This document shows positions 6,501 to 39,936 of a stretch of 64,000 nt of DNA, piece after piece. The stretch is from NCBI RefSeq assembly GCF_004331485.1, contig NZ_SJKD01000017.1:1-64000 (forward strand), in the 5' to 3' direction. The notes under the pieces are model-generated. The model was not told where the DNA came from. It saw only the letters and a list, made by a program, of their open reading frames with translations, and searched no databases. A program made the position numbers and the translations under genes. Position 1 is the stretch's first letter, and each line of letters opens with the position of its first letter. The DNA is from Kribbella capetownensis. Lineage in GTDB: Bacteria > Actinomycetota > Actinomycetes > Propionibacteriales > Kribbellaceae.

Positions 6501-9253
6501 TCATATGAAGCTTGCGTCGTGCGCCCGTTGGAGTCGGTGGTCGATGTGGCAAGCCCTGTCCCGAAGTCGTAGGTGGTGCTGGTCAGAATCTGGGCTGACG
6601 CCGGCGAGGCCGGGCCGTGCACCTGGCGCTCCGGGTACGCATACTGCGTCGCTATTGTGTATTCGTACGCTGAGCGCTCACAGCGGCCACTCTCGGCCGA
6701 GACGAGGTTGCCGGTGATGTCGTAGGTCCGCCGCTCGATCACCGGGTCGCGAGGCTGGAAGGGATTGGCGTACCGGCGGATCTCAGTAAGATTGCCGCGA
6801 AACTCTGTCCGAGTGTCGTATTCGGTCTGCCAGTAGCCGGCATGGTGGATCGTCCGGCACCGCTCAATACCGTGCTGGTCCTCGATGCAAATGAGCTCAT
6901 CGTGGGATGGCACCCAGACCCGCGGTGCGTATGGGTTGTGGGTCTGGGCGTGACCGGCGACGCCGGGCGTATCCCGCAGCGGCTGGGAGTCGTAGACGTA
7001 TTCTGTGCGGGCCGTCGGCAGCGGGTCAGTGCCGTGGAAGACCTCGACGACTGTCGGAAGTGCGAAAATGTGGCGCGCTAGATAGCCGGGGTTCTGTGCA
7101 TATTCAGTCCGGGTGCGGCGCAGCACGGCGGTTCCGCCAAAATCGAGCTCGCGGATCTCCGTCACGCGGTTGTAGGGCCCGTAGTCATACTCTGTTGCGG
7201 TCATCAGGTTGCGGCCGCGTGTTGCTTCGACCCGGCTGAGCCGGGGTGATCGGTAGTCGCCCTGCTGCCAGATGTTCGTGGTGAGTTGCACGAGCTGGCC
7301 GCCGTCGTAGACTTCCTGCTGGTAGGGCAACCCATCATCAAATTGTCCCGGCCTGTTATACGCGAGGGTGACGGTTCGGGTTCCGTTCGGGTAGGTAGCC
7401 TCCACGCGGCGCGGACTGGCGTCAGGCTGGCCGGCGAACCGAGTCACCGCCGCCGGAGAATCCATGCCGTCCCAGGTCTCGGTCATCGTCGTATACGTCG
7501 GCACATCGGTCAGCGCCGGATCGGCGGCGAGTGGGTAGTTGTAGCTACGCTGCTGTGTCATGGTTCCCGGGATGATCGACCCCGCCTGCGTGAGCGAAGC
7601 GTTGTCAAACCCCATCCCACGATGGCGCGTCACCCGGGTCGCCATCCCGTAGGCGGAATAGGTCCATGGATCCCCGAACCAGTAGCCGGTCGCGTCACCC
7701 GGATAGTAGATGGCCCGCAGGACCAGCGGGTCGCGGCGGTCGCGGCGTACTATCTCGAGTCCGGCGAAGGCCGGCTCGAGCCGCATGCGAACCCAGTTCA
7801 GCCGAACCAGCGTGCGACGTGTGCCGTCCAGTCCAGGACCGGTGATGGCGGTCAGCTGGCCCAAGCCAGCGGCCTCGTAATGGAAATTGATCGTCCGGCC
7901 GAGCGTGTCCACGATCGTATCGATCTCCGGGCCGACGTTGTTCCGGTAGCCGATCGTGATGACATTGCCGCTCGCGTCAGTGACGCGCGTCGGGAACAGT
8001 ACACCCCAGCTCGGGGTAACCGTGCCTATCACCGGGCGCACATGGTCGTGGCCGCGGGCGGTGTACTCGATTGTCATCCCGTCCGGATACCGCGCCTGCG
8101 CCCATTGGAATCCGCCCGAAAAATCATCGATGTGCTGATAGTCGATGAAGCTGCCATCGGTCGTGCGCCCGGTGAACTCGAGCCGGCGGTCCTGATTGCC
8201 TTCCATGCGCACCACTTCGTATGGATGGCGGGTGCCGTCCGCGTCGACCAGCATGCTGCCCTGCCGCCCAAGCCGCACGATGTGTCCGAAGCCAAGCGAC
8301 CAGCCCGGCGCAGGCCAGCCCTGATCGACATCGAAGTCGATCTGATCTTCGATGCGGTTCCACAAGCGGGAGTTGTAGGTCAGATCCAGCCGCCGATCCA
8401 TCCCCCGGCCCTCAAGCCTGAGAATCGGCGCCGAGAACGTGAAATTGGCACTGCCGACGGTAACCGCCTCCATCAGCTCAGCGCGCCGCAGGCCCAACCA
8501 GGGGCGGCCTTGCAGCGCGCTCGCAGACGGGCCGGATGGGCGGCCAACCCGGTTAACCGGCGCGACCGCAGACGCCGCATTACCATCGTTCCACCTCGGG
8601 CCGACCTCACCATCCTCAGCCGCCAGCGCCGTGGCCGATGGCGTGGCGCCAGGGCCGCGGACAGTCACCTCCGCCGCCCCTTCTCTCCCGCCGCCGCTCG
8701 CAGTGATCCTGTACACGCCGGGCAACCGGCCAACGAACTCCCCACCGGTGGACACGGGGACTTCCTGTCCGTCGGCATCTTGGGCCCTCCACCCCATTCG
8801 CACACCATCCACCGGAACGCCGCCGCCGTCCTGCGCCTCGGCGAGCAGCACGAGCCGAGCGCCCAGCGCCACCGTCACCTGTTCAGGCACGACCCGAAGC
8901 CTGGCGACGTCGGTCCTGATCTCCGGAGGCTCGGCCGCCTCACGCGGAAGAGCGAACGGAACAACAACTGTGACGGTGACCGGCGAATCTGGCGAATCAA
9001 TTGTGATCTCCTGTTCCAGGGCATGGATCAGGTCGAGGCGTCCGTCGAGCACCTCAAATCGCAGCCGCAGGAAGTCCCCAGTCGGCGACGTCTCCGACCA
9101 ACCTGCTTCCAGCGAGAATGAGCCGTCCTCGTCTGCGGTCCCGTAGCCGAGCGACAGGATCTCGTCGTCGCCACCGTACGCGTAGCCACAAACGTTGAAC
9201 CCCCCAAGCGGCCCACCATCAGATTCGCTTACAAGCTGCCCAATCAGTCTCAT
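3581..9253 (-). CDS. RHS/YD-repeat protein with unassigned C-terminal tip
   Basis: About 1890 residues. Residues 1-110 resemble a transthyretin/carboxypeptidase-regulatory-like fold, and 115-200 an Ig-like domain. Then come the RHS entry (LRLEGRGMDRRLDLTYNS) and a long shell of YD repeats (YDALGRL, YDGLGRL, YDEAGN types). The conserved core end is RHYDPRLGRFLQPDPLG with DPINRLDPAG at about 1700-1725. The last 165 residues are a variable, Pro/Gly/Glu-rich tip with no toxin motif that I recognise. The ATG at 9253 is chosen because AAGGGGGG sits just upstream; ATG 9274 and upstream codons lack such a site. There is no signal peptide. RHS proteins typically encapsulate a C-terminal toxin for interbacterial competition. 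No immunity ORF follows the gene; the downstream space holds transposase debris. The gene is flanked by a direct repeat, suggesting a transferred module. Confidence 0.85.
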   Translation of the reverse strand: MRLIGQLVSESDGGPLGGFNVCGYAYGGDDEILSLGYGTADEDGSFSLEAGWSETSPTGDFLRLRFEVLDGRLDLIHALEQEITIDSPDSPVTVTVVVPFALPREAAEPPEIRTDVARLRVVPEQVTVALGARLVLLAEAQDGGGVPVDGVRMGWRAQDADGQEVPVSTGGEFVGRLPGVYRITASGGGREGAAEVTVRGPGATPSATALAAEDGEVGPRWNDGNAASAVAPVNRVGRPSGPSASALQGRPWLGLRRAELMEAVTVGSANFTFSAPILRLEGRGMDRRLDLTYNSRLWNRIEDQIDFDVDQGWPAPGWSLGFGHIVRLGRQGSMLVDADGTRHPYEVVRMEGNQDRRLEFTGRTTDGSFIDYQHIDDFSGGFQWAQARYPDGMTIEYTARGHDHVRPVIGTVTPSWGVLFPTRVTDASGNVITIGYRNNVGPEIDTIVDTLGRTINFHYEAAGLGQLTAITGPGLDGTRRTLVRLNWVRMRLEPAFAGLEIVRRDRRDPLVLRAIYYPGDATGYWFGDPWTYSAYGMATRVTRHRGMGFDNASLTQAGSIIPGTMTQQRSYNYPLAADPALTDVPTYTTMTETWDGMDSPAAVTRFAGQPDASPRRVEATYPNGTRTVTLAYNRPGQFDDGLPYQQEVYDGGQLVQLTTNIWQQGDYRSPRLSRVEATRGRNLMTATEYDYGPYNRVTEIRELDFGGTAVLRRTRTEYAQNPGYLARHIFALPTVVEVFHGTDPLPTARTEYVYDSQPLRDTPGVAGHAQTHNPYAPRVWVPSHDELICIEDQHGIERCRTIHHAGYWQTEYDTRTEFRGNLTEIRRYANPFQPRDPVIERRTYDITGNLVSAESGRCERSAYEYTIATQYAYPERQVHGPASPASAQILTSTTYDFGTGLATSTTDSNGRTTQASYEPSSLRPQLIIWPTAAMTAFGYDDEQVAVTQTTRAADGSLAGQQTTVRNGLGLVKREATLTDIQRFENPELGELTVDVVDITDRQYDALGRLWRQSRPYRNGHVPVFTEMLRDSLGRVTHTRAGDGSETSAFYDERPRPDDAPPTSAGAYTTRLVDAWGRQRWTSHDALGQLQAVVEPHPDSDGSVLTPGTAATYYIYNALGQVVGIVQRSPASLNQIHSFVYDGLGRLTHQFVPGRSRTLTDAGEYRGPGARWTDVFAYTDGTRLAWSVDARGVRVVFDYGDDGLGRLQGVTYQLTSVGHPANPDPANPPEPASAVRYEYVPTGDLARLLRVTTDDAVEEFGYDDHGRLASKTVTLPDQPRRPFAIDYGYDGLDRLLGITYPAQYGTNGSPRKQVELEYDLAGRVRHLTLDGRDQASEITYAPCGLPASMTVGAGRQPITEIYECNPANGLPANQRILRDGETLLDLSNGYQHPGQPGTTGQLFRLTDNLDTRRTTTYEYDTLGRLRQVSGGPPDSPLWNQLYTYDRYGNRTNVAASGTDPDGAPMPPDGKGTLSFSTPLPDGRSRTDNRITSAGYAYDEAGNLTRMQRSNGAWLRCHYDAPGRLVRVTDDAGTALETYTYAADRRRIRTRNDQAGTQILYIWRAETVLTEYEQTSRQPRWSRALVYLGQRLLCTHTRVDAIRGSPAGRPANGAGELVRYHHPGRLGTRLITTPETGEIAELVTLPYGTRLHGDRIPARTPIFTSYDRSPITDLDYAVNRHYDPRLGRFLQPDPLGMTAIQLGQPQGNNAYTYTESDPINRLDPAGLRWIEGVWIDDGVLIGDEILVEGRPLSPGRAGDSPDESAREAMRGEGRDRGEAGRGASIDGPVEILEAGLGNAGRIIAVIARLLSAYFHPFTPLDPSELPRPSAPQSYQFDAERAAEEAARRRGAGGPPPGGTGVTLIISFHPGIYRLGARLDSLVRPGSADSTLY

Positions 9254-18677: not shown

Positions 18678-19151
18678 GTACCGGCCACGTGTGTCACGGT
18701 CGCACGGGACTCGGTCGGACCTGGCTAACCGTAAAACGGTGGAGACGCTGCAATCCAGGACCCTCGCCGCGGACTTGGCGTTCAGCTGCCCGGCCCGTTC
18801 GTCGGGCGGGGGATGCGACTCGGCGTAGCTCTCAACGTCACGCCGGAACAGCGGAAACGTCGCGTTGGACGATGGGGGCAGTTCATCTGCCGCGATCAGA
18901 TCGCGGACTGCGGCCGACGGTCGACCGAGGATCCTGGCTGCCTCACCGATCGAGATCGCTTCGCCGCGATCACGCAAGGCCTCGAGCGCTGGACGGTGAT
19001 ACCTCCGATACCCAGACCCACGCTGGATCAGGCCCCGGTGCGCCATCCGGTGAACGGTGCTCTCACCCACACCGAGAATCTCGGCCGCCTCCTTCGCCGA
19101 GACCCACTCGTCCTGATGCAGGTCATAGGCCCGGCGGTCGTCTGTGGTCAA
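18675..19151 (-). CDS. Excisionase-like tandem helix-turn-helix protein
   Basis: 158 residues with three successive MerR/Xis-type winged-helix units: VSAKEAAEILGVGESTVHRM (residues 17-36), ISIGEAARILGRPSAAVRDL (about 66-85) and LNAKSAARVLDCSVSTVLRL (about 124-143). Such proteins bind DNA at attachment sites or act as regulators. The location beside a tRNA fragment and IS debris fits a leftover control gene of an integrative element. The start is a TTG overlapping the TGA of the upstream 34-codon ORF (TTGA), so translation is probably coupled. The stop TAG supplies the TA into which the IS630 has inserted, and removal of the IS would leave the same stop. Confidence 0.6.
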   Translation of the reverse strand: MTTDDRRAYDLHQDEWVSAKEAAEILGVGESTVHRMAHRGLIQRGSGYRRYHRPALEALRDRGEAISIGEAARILGRPSAAVRDLIAADELPPSSNATFPLFRRDVESYAESHPPPDERAGQLNAKSAARVLDCSVSTVLRLARSDRVPCDRDTRGRY

Positions 19152-23117: not shown

Positions 23118-23217
23118 GGCGAGCACCGCATCGCGCGCCACGGGTGAGAGCTAGGGCCGTCGGCGATTACTCGAACTGGTGTTCTGGTCTGAAGGAATGG
23201 GGACGAATCGCCGGTAT
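23118..23217 (+). repeat. 100-bp direct repeat, copy 1
   Basis: About 85% identical to 36834-36930, sharing GCTAGGGCCGTCGGCGATTA and CTCGAACTGGTGTTCT. It ends inside the 5' part of the small gene at 23197. In the second copy the same sequence continues after an inserted element (39545 onwards), so both copies are the 5' region of one gene family. Confidence 0.65.
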
Positions 23218-23434
23218 CCGCGGGAGCCGCCGCCGGATGGCCGGCGCCGGCATTGCTGGGTGATGCGGACGGCTCGTGAGCGGGGTCCGTGGCCTGGGTT
23301 GATCCTCGAGTGGCGCCGTACCTCGTCGGGGGAGTGGCAGGCGCGGTCGTGTACGTGCCTGACCTGCGCCGACCCGAATCTGTCGAGGGTGGTTCGCCGC
23401 CGCCAATCTGCGGCCGCTGGACCCGAAGGCATAG
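23197..23434 (+). pseudogene. Conserved small actinobacterial protein, two frameshifts
   Basis: Correcting two slips (near 23342 and near 23390) gives a 79-residue protein. It starts MGTNRRYPREPPPDGRRR, continues GLILEWRRTSSGEWQA and VVYVPDLRRPESVE, and ends with WFAAANLRPLDPKA before TAG. The corrected reading is uniformly protein-like. A second, start-codon-less copy is split by the element at 36931-39544. Function unknown; it sits directly upstream of another frameshifted conserved gene, so the pair was probably an operon. Confidence 0.5.
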
Positions 23435-23493: not shown

Positions 23494-24403
23494 ATGGAGA
23501 CCGACGCCGCGATGGTCGAGCTGTACGGGTTGATACCCGAGCAGTTCATCGCCGCCCGGAACCAGCTGGCCAAGGCGGGCCCGCGATGCACCAGCAGACC
23601 GCGTCTGCCGTAGCGGCCTTGCGCAAGCCGACGGTGTCGCCTGGCTTGCCAATCAACTCGTCCGCGCCGATCCCGACGGCATCCATGCCTTGACCCAACT
23701 CGGCGAACAGTTGCGCGAGACCTATCTGTCGTCTGACAGCACCCGACGGCGCGAACTCACCCGGCAACGCCACGACCTGGTCCGCAGCCTGGTCCGGGTC
23801 GCGTGCGACCGGGCCGCCGGCGGCCGCCGCGTCACGCCCGCAACCACGGAACGACTCACCGAAACCCTCGACGCCGCTCTGGTCGACCCCGCGGCCGCGC
23901 AACTGCTCCGCTCCGGACAGCTGACGAGCGCCCTTCGGCGCGTCGGGTTCGGCGTGGTCGACGAGAACGGCGACCCGGTGGGGTTCGCCCCGATCGGGCC
24001 GCGCGTCGTACGCCGCGTCGCCCCGCCGCGCAAAAGCCCGACTTCGACGACCACGCGGCGCCTTCCTGCAAAGGCTGGCCACTCGCCGGTGGACCACACG
24101 CTGAAGCAGCGCCGAGCCGGCCAGCGGAAACGCCGCGACGAGGCGCAGGCGGACTACACACTGGCCGCGGCCGAGCACGAGCAGGCCGGTCATGTGCTCG
24201 ACGCGCACCAGCATCGAATCGCCGACCTGGAAGCCGACCTTGTCCGGCTCAACGACCAACTTGAACAGACCCGTCAGACGCTGCGCGAAGCGCGCAAGCA
24301 AACCCGGCGCCTCGAACGCGCCTTCCACCAGGCGGCTCGCAACGCCGCCGCCGTCAGAAAGCGGTTCGACACCGAGGAGCAGCGTCTGACCGCAATGGAG
24401 TGA
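23494..24403 (+). pseudogene. Conserved actinobacterial coiled-coil protein, frameshifted
   Basis: The pieces read MVELYGLIPEQFIAARNQLA, then SAVAALRKPTV, then VAWLANQLVRADPDGIHALT. A long open frame from about 23630 continues to 24403 with LTRQRHDLVRSLVRVA, a Pro/Arg linker, and a heptad-rich coiled coil (about 130 residues) at the end. Joined, it is a roughly 300-residue protein of a type seen in actinobacteria, with an N-terminal helical domain and C-terminal coiled coil. Two frameshifts near 23575 and 23635 disrupt it. If these are sequencing errors the gene is intact. The target duplication of the next element begins at 24402, overlapping its stop. Confidence 0.5.
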
Positions 24404-24421
24404 TAACCCTGTGTACTGTCA

Positions 24422-24466
24422 TGTCTCAGGACATCGGTGACGAATCTGTATCAGGACATCGGTGAC
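24422..24466 (+). repeat. Left terminal motif array of element A
   Basis: Two direct copies, TGTCTCAGGACATCGGTGAC (24422-24441) and TGTATCAGGACATCGGTGAC (24447-24466), spaced 25 bp. They are inverted relative to the right array at 25998-26068. Repeated subterminal sites of this kind are transposase-binding sites. Confidence 0.75.
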
Positions 24467-24614
24467 GCTTTCCGGGGCGCTTGGTGGTGACACTCCTTCG
24501 GCCCGGCGTGCAAGGCATGTCCTTCCGGATCTGCCGATGAGCGGTCGTGTCACTTCGGCTCGCCCAGATGGACGCAATCTTTGTATCGGGGCTGCCGCGT
24601 GGCGGGAACGGTTC

Positions 24615-25364
24615 CTAGGCAGCGCCGACCTTCCTGGGCGTCAGAACCAGCCGTACCCCGGTCACCAGCAGCCACACGAGCCAGGCGGCGTAGCCGAGCA
24701 GCCCCACGAACACGATCGGCGACCCGTCAGCGATCGCGAGGTTGGCCACCCCGGCGGCGATCAGCAGGCCTCCCCCGGCCACGCCGAGCACACGCTGCCA
24801 CGGCGCCGCCAGCCGACTCGCATGCGCCGCCAGCGCCGCGCCGATGAAGGTGGTGCCGAGCGCCGACATTGCCAGAGCGAATGCTCCTGCATGCAGCTGC
24901 CAGACCAGCTCGAACAGCGGGCTCGGCTCGGCGAGACCGCCGGCGGACAATACGACTCCGTTCCACAGAACGGCGTAGAGCGCGAGGACCGCCGCGAGAG
25001 TCGCGCCCGCGGCCACCGCGAGGCGCGACCAGTCGGCGCCCGCACCCCCGCGACGCCCGACCAGCCCGTGGAGACCGGTCACGAACACGAGCAGCAGCGG
25101 CAGGTTCAGCGCCTCTGAGCCGACCGCGATCGCGACCGCGGCCCGGTTCTCCGCGTGGAAGGCGAGCACCTTCTCGATCGGGTCGCCGTAGCCGGGCGCT
25201 CCGGCCCAGACCAGCACCGCATTCTGGATGACCAACGACGCTACCAATGCGATCGCCGCCGCGCCCACGACCCGCTCCCCGAACGCAGGGGTCGGGATCG
25301 GCAGCGGAACCTTGTTCACGGCCACAGCATGCGCTTGTGTAGCCGCAATCAACATAGGGATCAC
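24615..25364 (-). CDS. Multi-pass membrane protein (cargo of element A)
   Basis: 249 residues with six to seven hydrophobic helices (VVGAAAIALVASLVIQNAVL, ALNLPLLLVFVTGL, LAVAAGATLAAVLALYAVLW, FALAMSALGTTFIGAALAA, GVAGGGLLIAAGVANLAIA, GLLGYAAWLVWLLVTG). The layout resembles DUF4386-type integral membrane proteins, several of which lie at 34-37 kb, though the signature is weak. No Shine-Dalgarno decides the start; a GTG at 25319 (VNKVPLPIPTPAF) may be the true one. It lies wholly inside the cassette element, so it is a passenger gene moved by a transposase acting in trans, if mobile at all. Confidence 0.65.
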   Translation of the reverse strand: MIPMLIAATQAHAVAVNKVPLPIPTPAFGERVVGAAAIALVASLVIQNAVLVWAGAPGYGDPIEKVLAFHAENRAAVAIAVGSEALNLPLLLVFVTGLHGLVGRRGGAGADWSRLAVAAGATLAAVLALYAVLWNGVVLSAGGLAEPSPLFELVWQLHAGAFALAMSALGTTFIGAALAAHASRLAAPWQRVLGVAGGGLLIAAGVANLAIADGSPIVFVGLLGYAAWLVWLLVTGVRLVLTPRKVGAA

Positions 25365-25503
25365 CCCGATCTACGCCCGGGCCTACCCTGCCGCTGCTGT
25401 GGCGCTACTAAACGCTGACTCGGGAAACGCACTCATCTGCCGCGATCCGCGCAGTCGTGCCGACGAGCTCGACCGTGCGGCGATCCCTGGCAGTATCGGC
25501 GCC

Positions 25504-25929
25504 GTGAGTGATGCTGCCCGTTTGCCAGTCCTGCTCGATGACATGGAACGACGCTTTCTACGGGCCGCCTTGCTGGACTGGGGCGGCCCCGCGCAGCCCA
25601 CGGATGAACTCGCCGTCGCCATGGGCTTCACAAGCGCCGACAGCCTGTCGAGCGAGGCCTGGGCGCTTTGGAAGCGGATCGAAGCAGGCCAGACGATGAC
25701 AGCAGAGGACTGGAGACGAGTCCTGCTATCAGTCGAGATCGCGTTTGCGAGCGATGTCGTCGGTTCCGGCCTTGACTGGCGGATCACGTCCGGCATCTCA
25801 GACGAGGAGTCCGTCGGCCTTCTCCGAGGGCTTCAGCGCAAGTTGCCCAGATGGCGCGGCAGCGTGCAGTTCACAGTGCAGGAGAGCGGCAGCGTCGATA
25901 TTACGGACCCCGAACGCCCCGATCTCTAA
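25504..25929 (+). CDS. Hypothetical protein (cargo of element A)
   Basis: 141 residues from GTG 25504 (VSDAARLPVLLDDMERRFL). It is helical in the first half, with SAAL-type helices and MGFTSADSLSSEAWALW. It ends with an amphipathic beta strand (SVQFTVQESGSVDITD). No signal peptide and no family is recognised. It is divergent from the membrane-protein gene, sharing about 140 bp upstream. The size and acidic tail would fit a small cytosolic partner or immunity-type protein, but there is no direct evidence. Confidence 0.55.
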   Translation: MSDAARLPVLLDDMERRFLRAALLDWGGPAQPTDELAVAMGFTSADSLSSEAWALWKRIEAGQTMTAEDWRRVLLSVEIAFASDVVGSGLDWRITSGISDEESVGLLRGLQRKLPRWRGSVQFTVQESGSVDITDPERPDL

Positions 25930-25997
25930 CGCACTGACATGCCGCTGAGCGAGCGCGTCCGGGTCGGGCCGAGCAGATGCCTTGGTTGGCCATGAGT

Positions 25998-26068
25998 GTC
26001 ACCGATGTCTTGAGAGATCGAGTGTCACCCATGTCCTGACACAGAGCTGTCACCGATGTCCTGAGACA
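25998..26068 (-). repeat. Right terminal motif array of element A
   Basis: Three copies of GTCACC(G/C)ATGTC(C/T)TGA-type sequence at 25998-26017, 26024-26043 and 26049-26068. They are spaced 25-26 bp and inverted relative to the left array. Confidence 0.75.
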
Positions 26069-26137
26069 TCACAGATGACCCTATGTACGGTCGCCTGCTG
26101 ACTAGAACATAGGTTCGAATAATGCCATTTTGGAGGC

Positions 26138-26449
26138 ATGGTGGGACGGTTCAACGTGCGCAGCGGTGCCGGGGACCAGGACTGGACGGTCTGGGACAAC
26201 GCGGCCAACGGCAACCGCGGATCCGGGCTGACCGAGGAGGCCGCCCAGAAGCTGGCCGCGGATCTGGAGTTGCAGTACGACGTGTACGGGCCACGGCCAA
26301 CCGGCCACGCCCGCCGCGTTGATCCACCGGTCGCCGTCGAGAAGGCCTCGCAGCAAGCGGGCTGGCTCGACGCGTGGATCTTCGAGCAAGGAACCTGGGT
26401 CGGCCGCGTCCGCGGACCAGGCGGCGGTCAAGTCCCTGGAAGTGGTGTA
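26138..26449 (+). pseudogene. Conserved small protein truncated by IS256
   Basis: Starts MVGRFNVRSGAGDQDWTVWD and continues GLTEEAAQKLAADLELQYD, RRVDPPVAVEKA, AWIFEQGTWVGRVRG. This is a compact actinobacterial protein pattern in which a WTVWD strand is followed by an ELELQYD helix. The last residues of the native protein are missing: the frame runs into the IS256 terminus near 26450 and ends inside it at 26485. The remainder is not found on the other side of the IS (after 27776), so the insertion was accompanied by a deletion or the flank has since changed. Confidence 0.5.
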
Positions 26450-27776
26450 GTGCTGCGTGATCTTGGGTTGGGGTTTAGGCGGTGAGTGCTGGTAGGTCGT
26501 CGGTTTCGATCTCGGGTTGGGTGTTGTTGATTGTGGTTAGGCGGGAGCGGGCGAGGACGTCGAGTCCGAGGTAGCGGCGTCCTTCGGCCCATTCGTCGGT
26601 TTGTTCGGCCAGGACGGCGCCGACGAGGCGGACGATGGCGTCGCGGTTGGGGAAGATGCCGACCGCGTCGGTGCGGCGCCGGATCTCCTTGTTGAGGCGT
26701 TCGGCGGGGTTGTTGGACCAGATCTGGGTCCACACGTCTTTGGGGAACGCGGTGAAGGCGAGGACGTCTTCGCGGGCGGCGGCGAGGTGGTCGGCGACTG
26801 CGGGGAGCTTCTCGCCGACGTAGTCGAGGAGCCGGTCGAACTGCGCTGCCACGGCGTCGGCGTCGGGCTGGTCGTAGACCGAGTGCAGCATCGCTTTCAC
26901 GGCTGGCCACATGCTCTTGGGGCAGATCGACATCAGGTTCGCTGCGTAGTGGGTGCGGCAGCGCTGCCAGCTGGCGCCGGGAAGATTGGCGGCAATTGCC
27001 TCGCGCAGGCCGGCGTGGGCGTCGCTGGTGATCAGCCGGACTCCGGCCAGGCCGCGAGCAACCAGATCGGCGAAGAACTCGTTCCAGGCTGACCCGGTTT
27101 CGCTGGTGGCAACGCGCAGGCCGAGGACCTCGCGGTGGCCGTCGCCGTTGACTCCGGTCGCGAGCAGGACCACGGCGTTGACCACGCGGCCACCTTCGCG
27201 GACCTTCATCGTCAACGCGTCCGCGGCCACGAACGTGACCGGACCAGCCGCGTCGAGCGGCCGGTGCCGGAAGTCCTCCACGATCGCGTCCAGGTCGGCC
27301 GCCATCCGGGAGACCTGGGACTTCGACAGCGAGTCGATGCCGAGGGTCTTGACCAGCTTGTCCATCCGCCGCGTCGACACGCCAGCGAGGTAGCAGTCGG
27401 CCACGACGGTGATCAGCGCTGACTCGGCGCGCTTGCGGCGCTCCAGCAACCACTCCGGGAAGTAGGTGCCCTTCCTCAGCTTCGGGACCGCGACATCGAC
27501 CGTTCCGACGCGGGTGTCGAGATCGCGGTGCCGATAGCCGTTGCGCTGACTGGTTCGGCTCGGAGACGGGCGTCCCCACTCCGCACCCACGACGGCGTCG
27601 GCATCGGCCGACAGCAGCGCGTTGATGATCGTCTGCAGCAACGAACGCATCAGGTCCGGGGATGCCTCAGCCAGGGCTTCGCCAAGCAGGCCGGCAGGGT
27701 CGACAATGTGTGGTGCGGTCATCGTGATGGTCCTCGAGGATTCTGTGGAAGGTTGACTCGAAGGATCACGCGATGG
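26450..27776 (-). mobile_element. IS256-family insertion sequence
   Basis: About 1.33 kb with one intact transposase gene. Ends carry GCGTGATCTTGGGTT (left) and, on the complement, GCGTGATCCTTCGAGT (right) as an imperfect inverted repeat, as in other IS256 elements. I cannot identify a target duplication, so the boundaries are accurate only to within about 10 bp. It is the only IS in the window with a fully open transposase. Confidence 0.65.
26475..27722 (-). CDS. IS256-family transposase
   Basis: 415 residues, the usual length for the mutator-type (MULE-like) transposases. The DDE triad is visible as [11 protein letters not shown] (first Asp), [10 protein letters not shown] (second Asp) and [17 protein letters not shown] (Glu, with the signature downstream Arg-rich motif). 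N-terminal DNA-binding text includes [18 protein letters not shown]. The start at ATG 27722 has GAGGACC upstream. No frameshift or missing residue is seen, so it is potentially active. Confidence 0.9.
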
Positions 27777-36833: not shown

Positions 36834-36930
36834 GGGCGAGCACCGCATCGCCCGCCATGGTGACAGCTAGGGCCGTCGGCGATTACTCGAACTGGTGTTC
36901 TAGTCTGAGGGGAAGGGGGCGAATCGTCGC
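36834..36930 (+). repeat. 100-bp direct repeat, copy 2 (split by element B)
   Basis: Matches 23118-23217 up to GAATCGTCGC, where element B begins; the sequence resumes at 39545 with GAATCGTCGCTACCCGCGGG. The intact arrangement would encode the 5' end of the same small gene as at 23197, although the ATG is AAG here. Confidence 0.65.
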
Positions 36931-36935
36931 TGTGA

Positions 36936-37006
36936 TGTCTCTGGACATGGGTGACGGTTCTGCATCAGGACATCGGTAACAGTTGATGTGTCAGGACTTT
37001 GGTGAC
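36936..37006 (+). repeat. Left terminal motif array of element B
   Basis: Three copies at 36936-36955, 36961-36980 and 36987-37006 of TGT(C/A)TCAGGACATCGGTGAC-like sequence, spaced 25-26 bp. They are inverted relative to 39495-39539. Confidence 0.75.
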
Positions 37007-37251
37007 GCTTCCGGGCGTCTTGTGGCGCGGACCGCGGGGTTCAAGTTCGGACGTCCTGGTCGGCGAGAGCCCGTCATTGCAACTCTTGCCTGTTCCCGTC
37101 TCCTGGACACACGGTGAAGGTCGCGACGGCTGAGCTGGACACGGCTCGGAGTTCGGCGTCGCCTGTCGCCGTCAGGGCTCCGACGAGGGCATTGAGCCCC
37201 AGCGCATCGCCTCTGGAGACCAGGCACGACGACTGTCGCGTCCGAGCCGAT
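37007..37251. other. Element B interior, no clear gene
   Basis: Minus-strand text RRPGRPNLNPAVRATRRPEA reads up to the terminal array and could be the basic C-terminus of a lost gene, possibly the original transposase. Nothing firmer is seen. Confidence 0.3.
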
Positions 37252-37290
37252 CTAGTACCTCGTCAAGCAACGTTGGGTAGGTAATCGGGC
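37252..37290 (-). repeat. Solo IS630 terminus
   Basis: CTAGTACCTCGTCAAGCAAC followed by GTTGGGTAGGTAATCGGG matches the complement of the right end of the IS630 at 17491-18677 (18640-18678) with one mismatch over about 37 nt, then diverges. The rest of the IS is absent. It is a relic inside element B. Confidence 0.65.
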
Positions 37291-37479
37291 TACTGGATCA
37301 CCCGGTGTCAGCGTCTGTTGGCACAGGACCATCGGGGACCGAAGGATTCGTGAGGAAATCTAGCCGAAGGTGTCTGATTGGCGGCGGGCTCTTCGTCGTA
37401 GGTGTGAACCGACCGCCCACAAGGGGTGGCCAGATCGGGCAGGGATCTGCAGCAAGATCCCCAGCAGGAGAGGCGCCCA

Positions 37480-38346
37480 ATGACAGCGAAAATCGTCAAC
37501 CCGGTTACACCGCCGATTGTCGACCGGGAAACCTGGCTCCAAGAGCGCGAGGCACTGTTGGAGCGCGAGAAGGCGCACACCCGTGAGGGTGACGCGATCG
37601 CGGCCGCGCGTCGCCGGTTGCCGATCACCGAGGTCGGACCGGTCTCCCTCGAGGGGGCCGGCGGGCCTACGCCGTTCATCGATCTGTTTGACGGCCGCGA
37701 CCAGTTGGTCGTGTACAAGCACATGTTCTATCCGGGCGAGCCGATCGAGAAGCAATGCGAGGGTTGCACCCTGTTCACCTGGGGCTTCCACGACGCCTCC
37801 TACCTCAACGCCCGTGGCATCAGCTTCGCCTTCTTCGGCGAAGGGCCCTACGACGAACTCGCCCGGTTTCGTGAATTCATGGGCCACAACCAGCCCTGGT
37901 ATTCCAACTAAAGGGTCGGTGATCCCGCCATATCGGCCGGTGGCGGCGGACATATCTCCTGTTACCTCCGCCGGGGTGACCGGGCATTTCTGACCTGGGA
38001 AACCACCGACCGTGGCGTCGAGGCGATCTCCTCGTCCTTGCAACTGATCGACCGGACCGTCTATGGACGTCAAGAAGCCTGGGAGGACTCACCCGAGGGC
38101 TGGCCGCAAGGGCCCAACGGCGCCTTCTGGCGCACCGATGATCACGGCAACCTGACCGGCTGGAGCCAGGGCGGGCGACCGAATCGGCCGACCAACTGCC
38201 CAGTGGTCCCGACCCGGCGCGACACCGGTCGGACCGCCCCAGGAACCGACAGGTCACCGCCCTGGCTGCTGCGGTGGACAGACCTCGTAACCGACAACCA
38301 GCAGCCCCACAGATCGTTCCGGGTCGCCCTGCCGGCCACCCTGTAG
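37480..38346 (+). pseudogene. DUF899 (thioredoxin-like) protein, frameshifted
   Basis: ATG 37480 (AGGAGAGG upstream) opens a DUF899 protein: MTAKIVNPVTPPIVDRETWL, then FDGRDQLVVYKHMFYPGEP, QCEGCTLFTWGFHDASYLNA (the Cys-x-x-Cys site) and GISFAFFGEGPYDELARFRE. It stops at 37911. Downstream text in another frame continues the family: FLTWETTDRGVEAISSSLQL, IDRTVYGRQEAWEDSPEGWP, FWRTDDHG. Between them about 30-40 codons are missing or scrambled, so the gene is broken by a small deletion and frameshift. Cargo of element B. Confidence 0.7.
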
Positions 38347-38410
38347 CCAGTAGGGGGTCGATGATCAACAGTCGCCCCGCACCCCGACACAAACTTAAGG
38401 AGAGCTTCCT

Positions 38411-38965
38411 ATGCGCCCGCTCATTCTTCGCCACGGTCTGTCCCTCGACGGTTACGGCTCGCCGCCGGCTGGTGTGCCAGAGGACTTCTTTCTCGAGTAC
38501 GAGGACGAGGAGTTTGTCGCTCACATGGCCGAGGTTCTCGGCAGTGCTGGCGTGCACGCGATGGGATCCCAGGCGTATCGGGACATGGCCGGCCACTGGC
38601 CCTTCCAGGACGGCCCCGAAGCCGAGGCGATGAACCGGATCCCGAAGGTCGTCTTCTCCCGGAGACCGATCGACACCCCATGGGCGACGACCACGGTCTG
38701 CTCCGGCGATCTCGTCACAGAGGTCCAGGCTCTGAAGGCGCAAGACGGCGGTCCGATCCTCGCCCACGGCGGCGTGCGGTTCGCGCAGTCGCTCGTGCGG
38801 GCCGACCTGGTCGACGAATACCACCTCTTGGTCAATCCGGTCGCACACGGTGGCGGTGGGCCGTTGTTCACCGAGTTCACGAGGCTGACGTTGGTCGATG
38901 TGAAGTCATTCCCAAGAGGCAACCTCGCCCTGACCTACACCCGTCCGAACCCGCCCGTAGCCTGA
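38411..38965 (+). CDS. Dihydrofolate reductase family protein (RibD C-terminal-like)
   Basis: 184 residues. MRPLILRHGLSLDGYGSPPA (N-terminal strand with the SLDG motif), AMGSQAYRDMAGHWP, NRIPKVVFSRR, GGPILAHGGVRFAQSLVRAD and DEYHLLVNPVAHGGGGPLF are the conserved blocks of the DHFR/RibD-C superfamily, which binds NADPH. The substrate is unknown; most such proteins are uncharacterised reductases. AAGGAGAG before ATG 38411 fixes the start. It sits inside element B directly downstream of the DUF899 relic, a pairing that makes a redox-related passenger module plausible. Confidence 0.8.
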   Translation: MRPLILRHGLSLDGYGSPPAGVPEDFFLEYEDEEFVAHMAEVLGSAGVHAMGSQAYRDMAGHWPFQDGPEAEAMNRIPKVVFSRRPIDTPWATTTVCSGDLVTEVQALKAQDGGPILAHGGVRFAQSLVRADLVDEYHLLVNPVAHGGGGPLFTEFTRLTLVDVKSFPRGNLALTYTRPNPPVA

Positions 38966-39089
38966 GCGGTATCACGCAATCAGCCGACACAGCGCACAAT
39001 GCGCCGAAACCGAATCCGATTCACCGAACCGGTCAACCCGAAAGGGTTACAACCCCGACATTCCTTGGTGAGGCAATAGCAGCGCATTG

Positions 39090-39374
39090 CCCTGCTGGGC
39101 GCTGAGCGCCACCGGTGGTTGCGGCGTCGGCGGCTACGAAGTCGAGGTGTGCCGCGAAGGTGAAGTTCCGCTCGCGCCCGCTCAGGTGCATGTCGTCGAC
39201 GTCGATGACGTCGCGGAAGCGAGGCTTGAGGAGCAACCGGTAACCGTTGTCACGCGCGTACTCGTCGAGCACACGGTCCACTTTCGATTCGCCGTCGGTG
39301 AGGATCTTCCGTAGTCCCGGCACGCTCTGCACGATAGCTGGCGCGGCCGTCGCCTGCGGGCTCCAGCGCCGCAC
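39090..39374 (-). pseudogene. Fragment of a nuclease-like (DUF2726-type?) protein
   Basis: The minus-strand frame reads VPGLRKILTDGESKVDRVLD, then YRLLLKPRFRDVIDVDDMHL and NFTFAAHLDFVAADAAT. The order (E-x-x-hydrophobic helix, then KPRxRDVIDVD, then hydrophobic strand FAAHLDFVA) resembles DUF2726-like PD-(D/E)XK proteins, though I am unsure. Both ends are lost; the C-terminal part is replaced by unrelated residues after DAATTG. It lies near the right end of element B. Confidence 0.35.
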
Positions 39375-39494
39375 CCGGCCATCGGGCCGGGTCCTGGCAC
39401 GGATCGCGAGACGGACACGAGAGGACCAGCAGGTTCATTGGTGGTCGGCACCGCTCAACACAGCCAGGAGTGTCACCACCAAGCACCCTGATGT

Positions 39495-39539
39495 GTCACC
39501 GATGTCCTGACACAGAACTGTCACCGATGTCCTGCGACA
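39495..39539 (-). repeat. Right terminal motif array of element B
   Basis: Two copies, GTCACCGATGTCCTGACACA (39495-39514) and GTCACCGATGTCCTGCGACA (39520-39539), 25 bp apart. Confidence 0.75.
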
Positions 39540-39544
39540 TGACA

Positions 39545-39936
39545 GGACGAATCGTCGCTACCCGCGGGAGTCGCCGCCAAAGGTCGTTGCCGCAATGACC
39601 TCTGGCCTCTCCGTGCGGAGGACTGCGCCTCTGTGGGCCGCAGGTGGCTCCTGTCCACCCCGGTTCCACGGCCGCGCCGGTCGCGGCGACGCCGATAGGG
39701 GATCTTGCGTAAGGTACAACACGTCCTGATGGCCCTTACCGCGTCCCCATGGACAGCGGCCATTCGAAGTCGTCCTGTCTCAGTTGAGTTGGCGCAGTCT
39801 CACTCAAACTGACGCATTCGACCTTTCGTCTCCACCGATCCTGCCTTGACGATCCTGACCTCGACCGGTGGGCACGTCCAGTCCGCCGAACGCTTCACCA
39901 TCACCGGCGTGCGCTGACCGCCGATCGGAGCGCGGG
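39545..39936. other. Flank of element B, no supportable gene
   Basis: It begins with the duplicated target and the continuation of the split 100-bp repeat. An imperfect inverted repeat (CAGTTGAGT...ACTCAAACTG) lies near 39782-39811. No gene before the kinase stop at 39937. Confidence 0.4.

Follow-up and report, generated by a model that had tools for sequence, protein, structure and literature searches.

Nested cassette B of Kribbella capetownensis and the near-constant spacing of its IS481-type family from SOS boxes

How does a gene cassette that encodes no transposase come to rest at a particular place in a genome? The question is raised by element B, which lies in a 64,000-nt stretch of Kribbella capetownensis DNA (the window, to which all positions refer; the genome it belongs to is called its own genome). 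B has the ends of an insertion sequence (IS), a target duplication and, a short way off, an SOS box, which is a palindrome resembling the operator of the DNA-damage repressor LexA. We propose that B is, very probably, a non-autonomous IS481-type cassette that was moved in trans by a transposase docking on LexA operators. An SOS box at a near-constant distance marks every two-ended member of the family that we described in Kribbella.

Anatomy of element B and of its nested insert

The 16-base end motif TCAGGACATCGGTGAC (at most 3 mismatches) is found at 11 sites of the window against 0.83 expected; besides the copies in B and in a sister cassette, element A (Table 1), there is a lone site at 8123. 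Compared over their outermost 60 bp, the two ends of A and the two of B share 46-49 of 60 positions in all six pairings. The preliminary description of this DNA, which had given both elements the same terminal motif, with three copies at the left end of B and two at its right end, was thus correct, as it was in assigning B a 14-bp duplication (13 of 14 positions identical, one mismatch). It had also supposed that the empty target survives elsewhere in the window. Indeed, the flanks of B, joined after removal of one duplication copy, align colinearly with 23118-23234 over 117 columns, 104 of them identical, with a score of 167 (shuffled sequence reaches 30 at most), which confirms the empty site. 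The copy that B interrupts is now a relic: similarity on the right ends at 39578, and the start ATG of the intact ORF (open reading frame) at 23197 reads AAG. B sits on the gene side of its SOS box, at the gene start. Element A has a 15-bp duplication with 2 mismatches (24402-24416 and 26074-26088). In both elements IS ends flank passenger ORFs, and a search for a transposase match at E<=1e-5 found none in either.

Within B, a 1.8-kb insert lies between TA copies at 37253-37254 and 39077-39078. B-family sequence at another locus (L193) runs on as GATCTAGCAGCG at the place of the insert, and in a second species (L194) the matches abut likewise, giving the same empty site. The ends of the insert match those of a ~1.2-kb IS630 element whose 368-aa transposase passes the NCBI IS630 model (216.8 bits, cut-off 100), and its left end resembles an IS630 copy ending at window position 18678. 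We class the insert as an IS630-type cassette by its IS630-like ends, the TA on both sides and the empty site in L193. The DUF2726 gene that is interrupted in B encodes a single 370-aa protein in L193; B is a cassette within a cassette, its original DUF2726 gene being the site of the IS630-type insert. The DUF899 relic and the reductase of the dihydrofolate reductase (DHFR) family, listed earlier as cargo of B, belong to the nested cassette, and we reject them as direct cargo of B on account of the empty site in L193 and L194. The nuclease-like fragment listed with them is B's own and is part of the split DUF2726 gene. As a negative control, IS630 copies were viewed at four places, two of them on one side only, and no SOS box was found within 100 bp.

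Table 1. Features of elements A and B, their surroundings and the nested cassette (window positions)
Feature	Position	Strand	Sequence or remark
Element B	36931..39544		IS481-type mobile cassette, 2614 bp; TGT..ACA ends
B three-copy end	36931..37006	+	begins TGTGATGTC; repeats at 36940, 36965, 36991
B two-copy end	39495..39544	-	repeats at 39495, 39520; terminates ACA
B target duplication, left copy	36917..36930		GGGCGAATCGTCGC
B target duplication, right copy	39545..39558		GGACGAATCGTCGC
SOS box at B (LexA operator-like palindrome)	36889..36900		GAACTGGTGTTC
Spacer, SOS box to B target duplication	36901..36916		16 bp
Unoccupied paralogue of B target	23118..23234	+	SOS box 23173-23184; small ORF from 23197
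Nested IS630-type cassette	37253..39078		inserted in B, TA..TA; empty site in L193, L194
DUF899 relic	37480..37911	+	profile positions 2-135 of 224; nested cassette cargo
RibD_C-domain reductase (RibD/DHFR-like)	38411..38965	+	184 aa, open reading frame; nested cassette cargo
ORF with fragment of B's original DUF2726 gene	39033..39374	-	split by nested cassette
Element A	24417..26073		sister cassette of B, same end type; TCAGGACATCGGTGAC copies at 24426, 24451 (+) and 25998, 26024, 26049 (-)
A ORF, 249 aa	24615-25364	-	weak DUF4386 match, under cut-off
A second ORF	up to 25929	+	
SOS box of A target	26105..26116		GAACATAGGTTC; 31 bp from A

The short ORF with an SOS box is present at 23118-23240 and, as a relic, at 36835-36929; a further small ORF with an SOS box lies near these copies, at 26138-26485. 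A Pfam search with a relative of the short ORF (L075) gave no match.

SOS boxes and cassettes in Kribbella

Scanning 38 Kribbella genomes for the two-repeat end pattern gave matches in 24, and we described 43 elements, 29 two-ended and 14 single-ended. Duplications of 13-16 bp (16 bp in G018d), some mismatched and differing in sequence, flank 26 of the 29 two-ended elements. A box, defined as GAACnnnnGTTC at at least 7 of 8 bases and sought 28-33 bp from the element, stands at 29-32 bp on one side of all 29, A and B included, and in 23 of these elements both ends score above the shuffled level. Boxes of this quality occupy 4.7e-4 of positions in the loci, so that about 0.6% would be expected per element over 12 placements. 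The logo of 47 distinct sites reads TCGAACAnnTGTTC(G/T)A, and spacer and duplication positions carry at most 0.29 bit each. The gap from duplication to box is 16 bp in 29 of 41 cases, 14 bp in six, and 15 or 17 bp in three each; either element end may face the box. A resemblance between end repeats and box was considered as the explanation of the target and rejected, since box-less relatives have similar end repeats.

The motif agrees with the consensus tCGAAC-N4-GNNCGa that PMC9380542 reports from LexA chromatin immunoprecipitation sequencing in Streptomyces venezuelae. The pattern GAACRnnYGTTC occurs 41 times in the own genome (8.83 Mb) and its reversal 26 times, so some of the 41 may be chance; two of the 41 lie upstream of the recA and lexA of this genome. 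Judged by this motif, the box is a LexA operator. The same genome has a second LexA-family match (C27:194181-194792) besides that at C31:24237.

The genes at the boxes are varied. Among 19 searched with Pfam are dnaE2, in both Kribbella and Mycolicibacterium frederiksbergense, many DUF222/HNH genes, DUF6319, radical SAM and AMP-binding genes, along with small genes that matched nothing. In Kribbella, 13 of 32 sites have a long ORF beginning 12-13 bp past the box, which puts the element upstream of the gene; this count comes from a script that viewed the far side of the box only and would miss gene-side insertions such as B.

The same cassette recurs at different sites. Pieces of cassette A (540-980 bp, 91-97% identical) are present in four other Kribbella species, five in all, and both ends are resolved in the window, L073 and L080, where duplications and flanking genes differ; the duplications of L073, at a DUF222 gene, and of L080, at a radical SAM gene, are both perfect and 15 bp long. 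The L073 copy also holds a broken transposase. L080 has no transposase match, so that cassette A material lacking such a match stands at two sites flanked by duplications, in the window and in L080. A second cassette, with glyoxalase-like and APH-family genes, recurs in L028, L070, L078 and L091. Cargo across cassettes includes APH-family phosphotransferases, glyoxalase-like, Fic/Doc and nuclease-like proteins. The earlier view that elements with the same ends and unrelated cargo moved as units therefore stands; it had missed the nesting and the SOS box as target mark.

Three side observations concern further copies. First, the own genome has four more TCAGGACATCGGTGAC sites, of which three are lone matches and one, C21:613939, is a real end (element C; L014, 3931 onward). 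This left end directly follows a paralogue of the gene at window 23690-24403 and is followed in turn by Fic/DOC-family and APH-family ORFs; a right end of element C was not found. Second, the genus scan gave a degenerate family element in the own genome (L070 6155-7430, C30:293163), with an SOS box at 29 bp, adjoining sequence of the glyoxalase/APH cassette. Third, L031 5166-8170 holds two back-to-back cassettes at one SOS box, one of the APH family and a truncated cassette A.

Transposases and boxes beyond Kribbella

Autonomous relatives with the same ends are ~1.43-1.46 kb long and consist of one ORF for a DDE transposase of 418-428 aa with N-terminal HTH_28/HTH_29, rve and rve_3 domains (Pfam). 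This single-ORF DDE design, the TGT..ACA ends and a duplication within 2-15 bp are those of IS481, and the IS481 model NF033577 is by far the best NCBIfam model for the two transposases tested. Cognate transposases (near-full-length query, at least 79% identity) are encoded in 5 of the 38 genomes: G018, G035, G003, G019 and G020, the match in G020 containing one flagged TGA, possibly the stop codon of that gene. The preliminary description had called for a search for a resident transposase that recognizes the ends; the own genome has no cognate at E<=1e-40, its best match being a 35% fragment, so the helper is absent or lost.

Related transposases led to 80 loci, of which 38 passed a filter for ends and duplication, 22 with a box and 16 without; five of the 22 are Kribbella elements already counted, leaving 17 of 33 outside the genus. 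Box loci that passed the filter come from Mycobacteriaceae (13 of 13), Nocardioides, Pseudonocardia (2) and Propionicimonas, and overall the box rule recurs in Mycobacteriaceae, Gordonia, Nocardioides, Pseudonocardia, Propionicimonas and one Leifsonia. Ten further loci were checked, eight from the set of 80 and two from plasmids. Six have a box at 30-31 bp (L107, L110, L117, L126 and the plasmid loci L202 and L203; L110, L202 and L203 at 7 of 8 bases) and four have none (L098, L121, L134, L137); L098 lacks one flank, and L121, L134, L137 and others have one good end only. A class-wide scan of 394 genomes gave nine matching genomes besides the own, two of which repeat known loci (G186, the same as L118, and G099). 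Five of the seven new elements have a box at 29-31 bp (G415, G161, G071, G322, G196), G415 and G161 with duplications as well; no box was found at the single-ended G147 and G275.

Box-bearing elements cluster on the transposase tree: the label changes 3 times against a shuffled mean of 10.6, and none of 500 shuffles was as low. The box rule seems to go with the transposase and not with the host, because the element of Leifsonia aquatica, which was labelled by hand, groups with a Kribbella element and the four other labelled Microbacteriaceae elements are box-less. Box and box-less rows differ most in region 310-400, towards the C-terminus, where transposases of box rows are 51% identical to one another and 30% identical to those of box-less rows. 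The figure among box-less rows is much the same, at 31%, and box rows also resemble each other more closely in the other regions. A search for a docking surface would best begin in region 310-400, drawn as strands in a weak structure model. Fourteen box-less loci were searched for another shared palindrome or an abutting tRNA gene, and nothing consistent was found. At one box-less locus, in Saccharopolyspora hirsuta (L153), the strong palindrome TTTCAATTGAAA stands on both sides at a similar distance; it is perhaps another operator used as an anchor.

A cousin IS481-type subgroup, with transposases 35-41% identical, has 24 matches in the genus, of which we examined 22, in 19 loci of other Kribbella genomes (L204-L222). 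A tRNA gene adjoins the element in 14 of the 19 loci and T-arm-like sequence in three more; L213 has no clear tRNA assignment and L218 differs. The duplication (~15 bp) is the tRNA 3' end, next to the T-loop, thus the tRNA is restored. The distance was measured in 16 of the 19 loci: TCGAAC, or in one locus TTGAAC, begins 18-19 bp away from the element; in the SOS group the distance is 26-30 bp, mostly 29. Tandem cousin copies stand at single sites in L208, L209 and L217.

Target choice and its meaning

We propose the following course of events. B has the ends of the autonomous IS around a DUF2726 gene in the transposase's place; a cognate transposase now absent from the genome would have moved it in trans, and an IS630-type cassette with the DUF899 relic and the RibD_C reductase would later have broken the DUF2726 gene; the movement in trans and this order of events are what we infer. 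To choose its target, the transposase would dock on the LexA operator TCGAACAnnTGTTC(G/T)A, and the ends would be joined to a stretch that begins, in most cases, 16 bp from the box, with duplication of ~15 bp of arbitrary sequence. Insertion would fall mostly on the side away from the SOS gene, thus sparing the gene.

Several points weigh against this proposal. The evidence for movement is sequence comparison. In Kribbella, one end of 6 of the 29 two-ended elements is at or near the shuffled level (scores 28-31, shuffled maximum 30), single-ended elements have a box on the surviving side in 3 of 14 cases, and the boxes of A and B are each one base off the commonest form. At the related cassette in L193 a box is absent, also when 7 of 8 bases suffice. 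Outside the genus, 16 of the 33 filtered loci lack a box; they belong to Microbacteriaceae (Microbacterium), Brevibacterium, Dietzia, Ornithinimicrobiaceae (Ornithinimicrobium), Saccharopolyspora and others, and among the 16 box-less loci L170 resembles an end artefact and L127 and L128 share the same flanks. G099 (L229/L124) has two ends and neither duplication nor box. On the tree, L119 is a box-less row amid box rows, and the box rows L171 and L172 have very long branches and unsure placement. The two transposases tested score 214 and 211 bits with NF033577, below its curated cut-off of 224, hence our wording "IS481-type"; the transposase structure model is poor (predicted local distance difference test, pLDDT, 66; predicted template modelling score, pTM, 0.37).

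How would the box be recognized? We prefer direct contact between transposase and DNA, because the cousins keep a fixed spacing from the same TCGAAC, there in the T-loops of tRNA genes, which LexA would not be expected to occupy; TCGAAC does, however, belong to tRNA T-arms in any case. A transposase that binds LexA on the box, the box itself not being read, seems to us possible and rather unlikely in view of these cousins. In its favour, host factors bound to DNA are used by some retroelement integrases, the logo coincides with the LexA consensus, and a near-constant spacing suits a protein bridge. The identities in region 310-400, read with the caveats given above, are compatible with a changed contact. 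Moreover, SOS boxes are reported to be occupied by LexA in unperturbed growth (PMC9380542).

There is a wider possibility, to which we give an even chance: that both groups form an anchor-and-reach DDE lineage whose transposase reads TCGAAC and cuts at a set distance, mostly 29 bp in the SOS-box branch and 18-19 bp in the T-loop branch, about one DNA turn apart, its cassettes bringing genes upstream of SOS promoters in several species.

Two other explanations fare far worse. If the elements favoured promoters of a single repeated gene family (DUF222/HNH, 13E12-like), or promoter DNA in a relaxed state, the box would be a passenger. This would accord with DUF222 as the commonest target among the 19 genes given to Pfam, yet it is most improbable: unrelated targets share the box, dnaE2 in two genera included, no position other than those adjoining the box is comparably conserved, and the spacing is fixed within a few bp. 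The other explanation, in which homologous recombination or segmental duplication, and not transposition, would have multiplied A and B as static repeats, might be suggested by paralogous sites (A, C and G020b all follow the same gene end) and by the single-ended elements. It is more improbable still, given the differing duplications at 26 of 29 two-ended elements, the autonomous element of 1458 bp that one genome has in four identical copies, at four loci with a separate 15-bp duplication each, and the empty sites of B and the nested cassette.

Among known systems, Tn7 at attTn7 and Ty1/Ty3 near tRNA genes rely on dedicated targeting proteins or polymerase III factors. They too keep a fixed offset from a recognized host sequence or bound factor and spare the host gene; here, unlike there, one transposase ORF and an SOS operator are involved. 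It is already known that IS481 members make ~15-bp duplications and carry passenger genes and that mobile insertion cassettes (MICs) exist (PMC10045372, PMC6794481, PMC3129680). IS481 duplications are given as 2-15 bp (PMC10045372), and the family shares with our elements the single-ORF DDE transposase (rve, HTH_28/29), the TGT..ACA ends and a ~15-bp duplication; our elements differ in having several subterminal repeats per end and an operator at near-constant distance. TnRErm46 is a cargo-bearing IS481 relative, reported to target CTAG with a 6-bp duplication (PMC6794481), in which it differs. MICs are described as IS derivatives that lack a transposase of their own and can be activated by a cognate one, and transporter ISs as carrying passenger genes (PMC3129680). 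A and B are alike in having IS ends around passenger genes and encoding no transposase; the many cargo types, the location at SOS boxes in several species and the IS630-type cassette held by B set ours apart from MICs. ISs that use repeated palindromic DNA as target, inserting into REP sequences (PMC1525189), share a repeated palindromic target signal, whereas here the palindrome is a regulatory operator and insertion falls outside it at near-constant distance. ISCR elements also link SOS response and transposon, the transposase promoter being under LexA control (PMC13393415); there LexA regulates expression, whereas here its operator would be the landing mark. No report of insertion at a fixed distance from LexA boxes was found in the open PubMed Central literature, searched by title and abstract.

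The usual view has bacterial insertion sequences landing loosely or at short core motifs. Here the operator of a global DNA-damage repressor would serve as the landmark, with the regulated gene mostly spared and varied cargo set beside it in soil actinobacteria. This would link the SOS response to gene acquisition and may offer a compact, one-protein, site-directed transposase. It also poses a testable alternative: LexA either recruits the transposase or shields the site from it. Should the transposase read the box DNA directly, LexA would keep the targets shielded until DNA damage, thus tying insertion to the SOS response.

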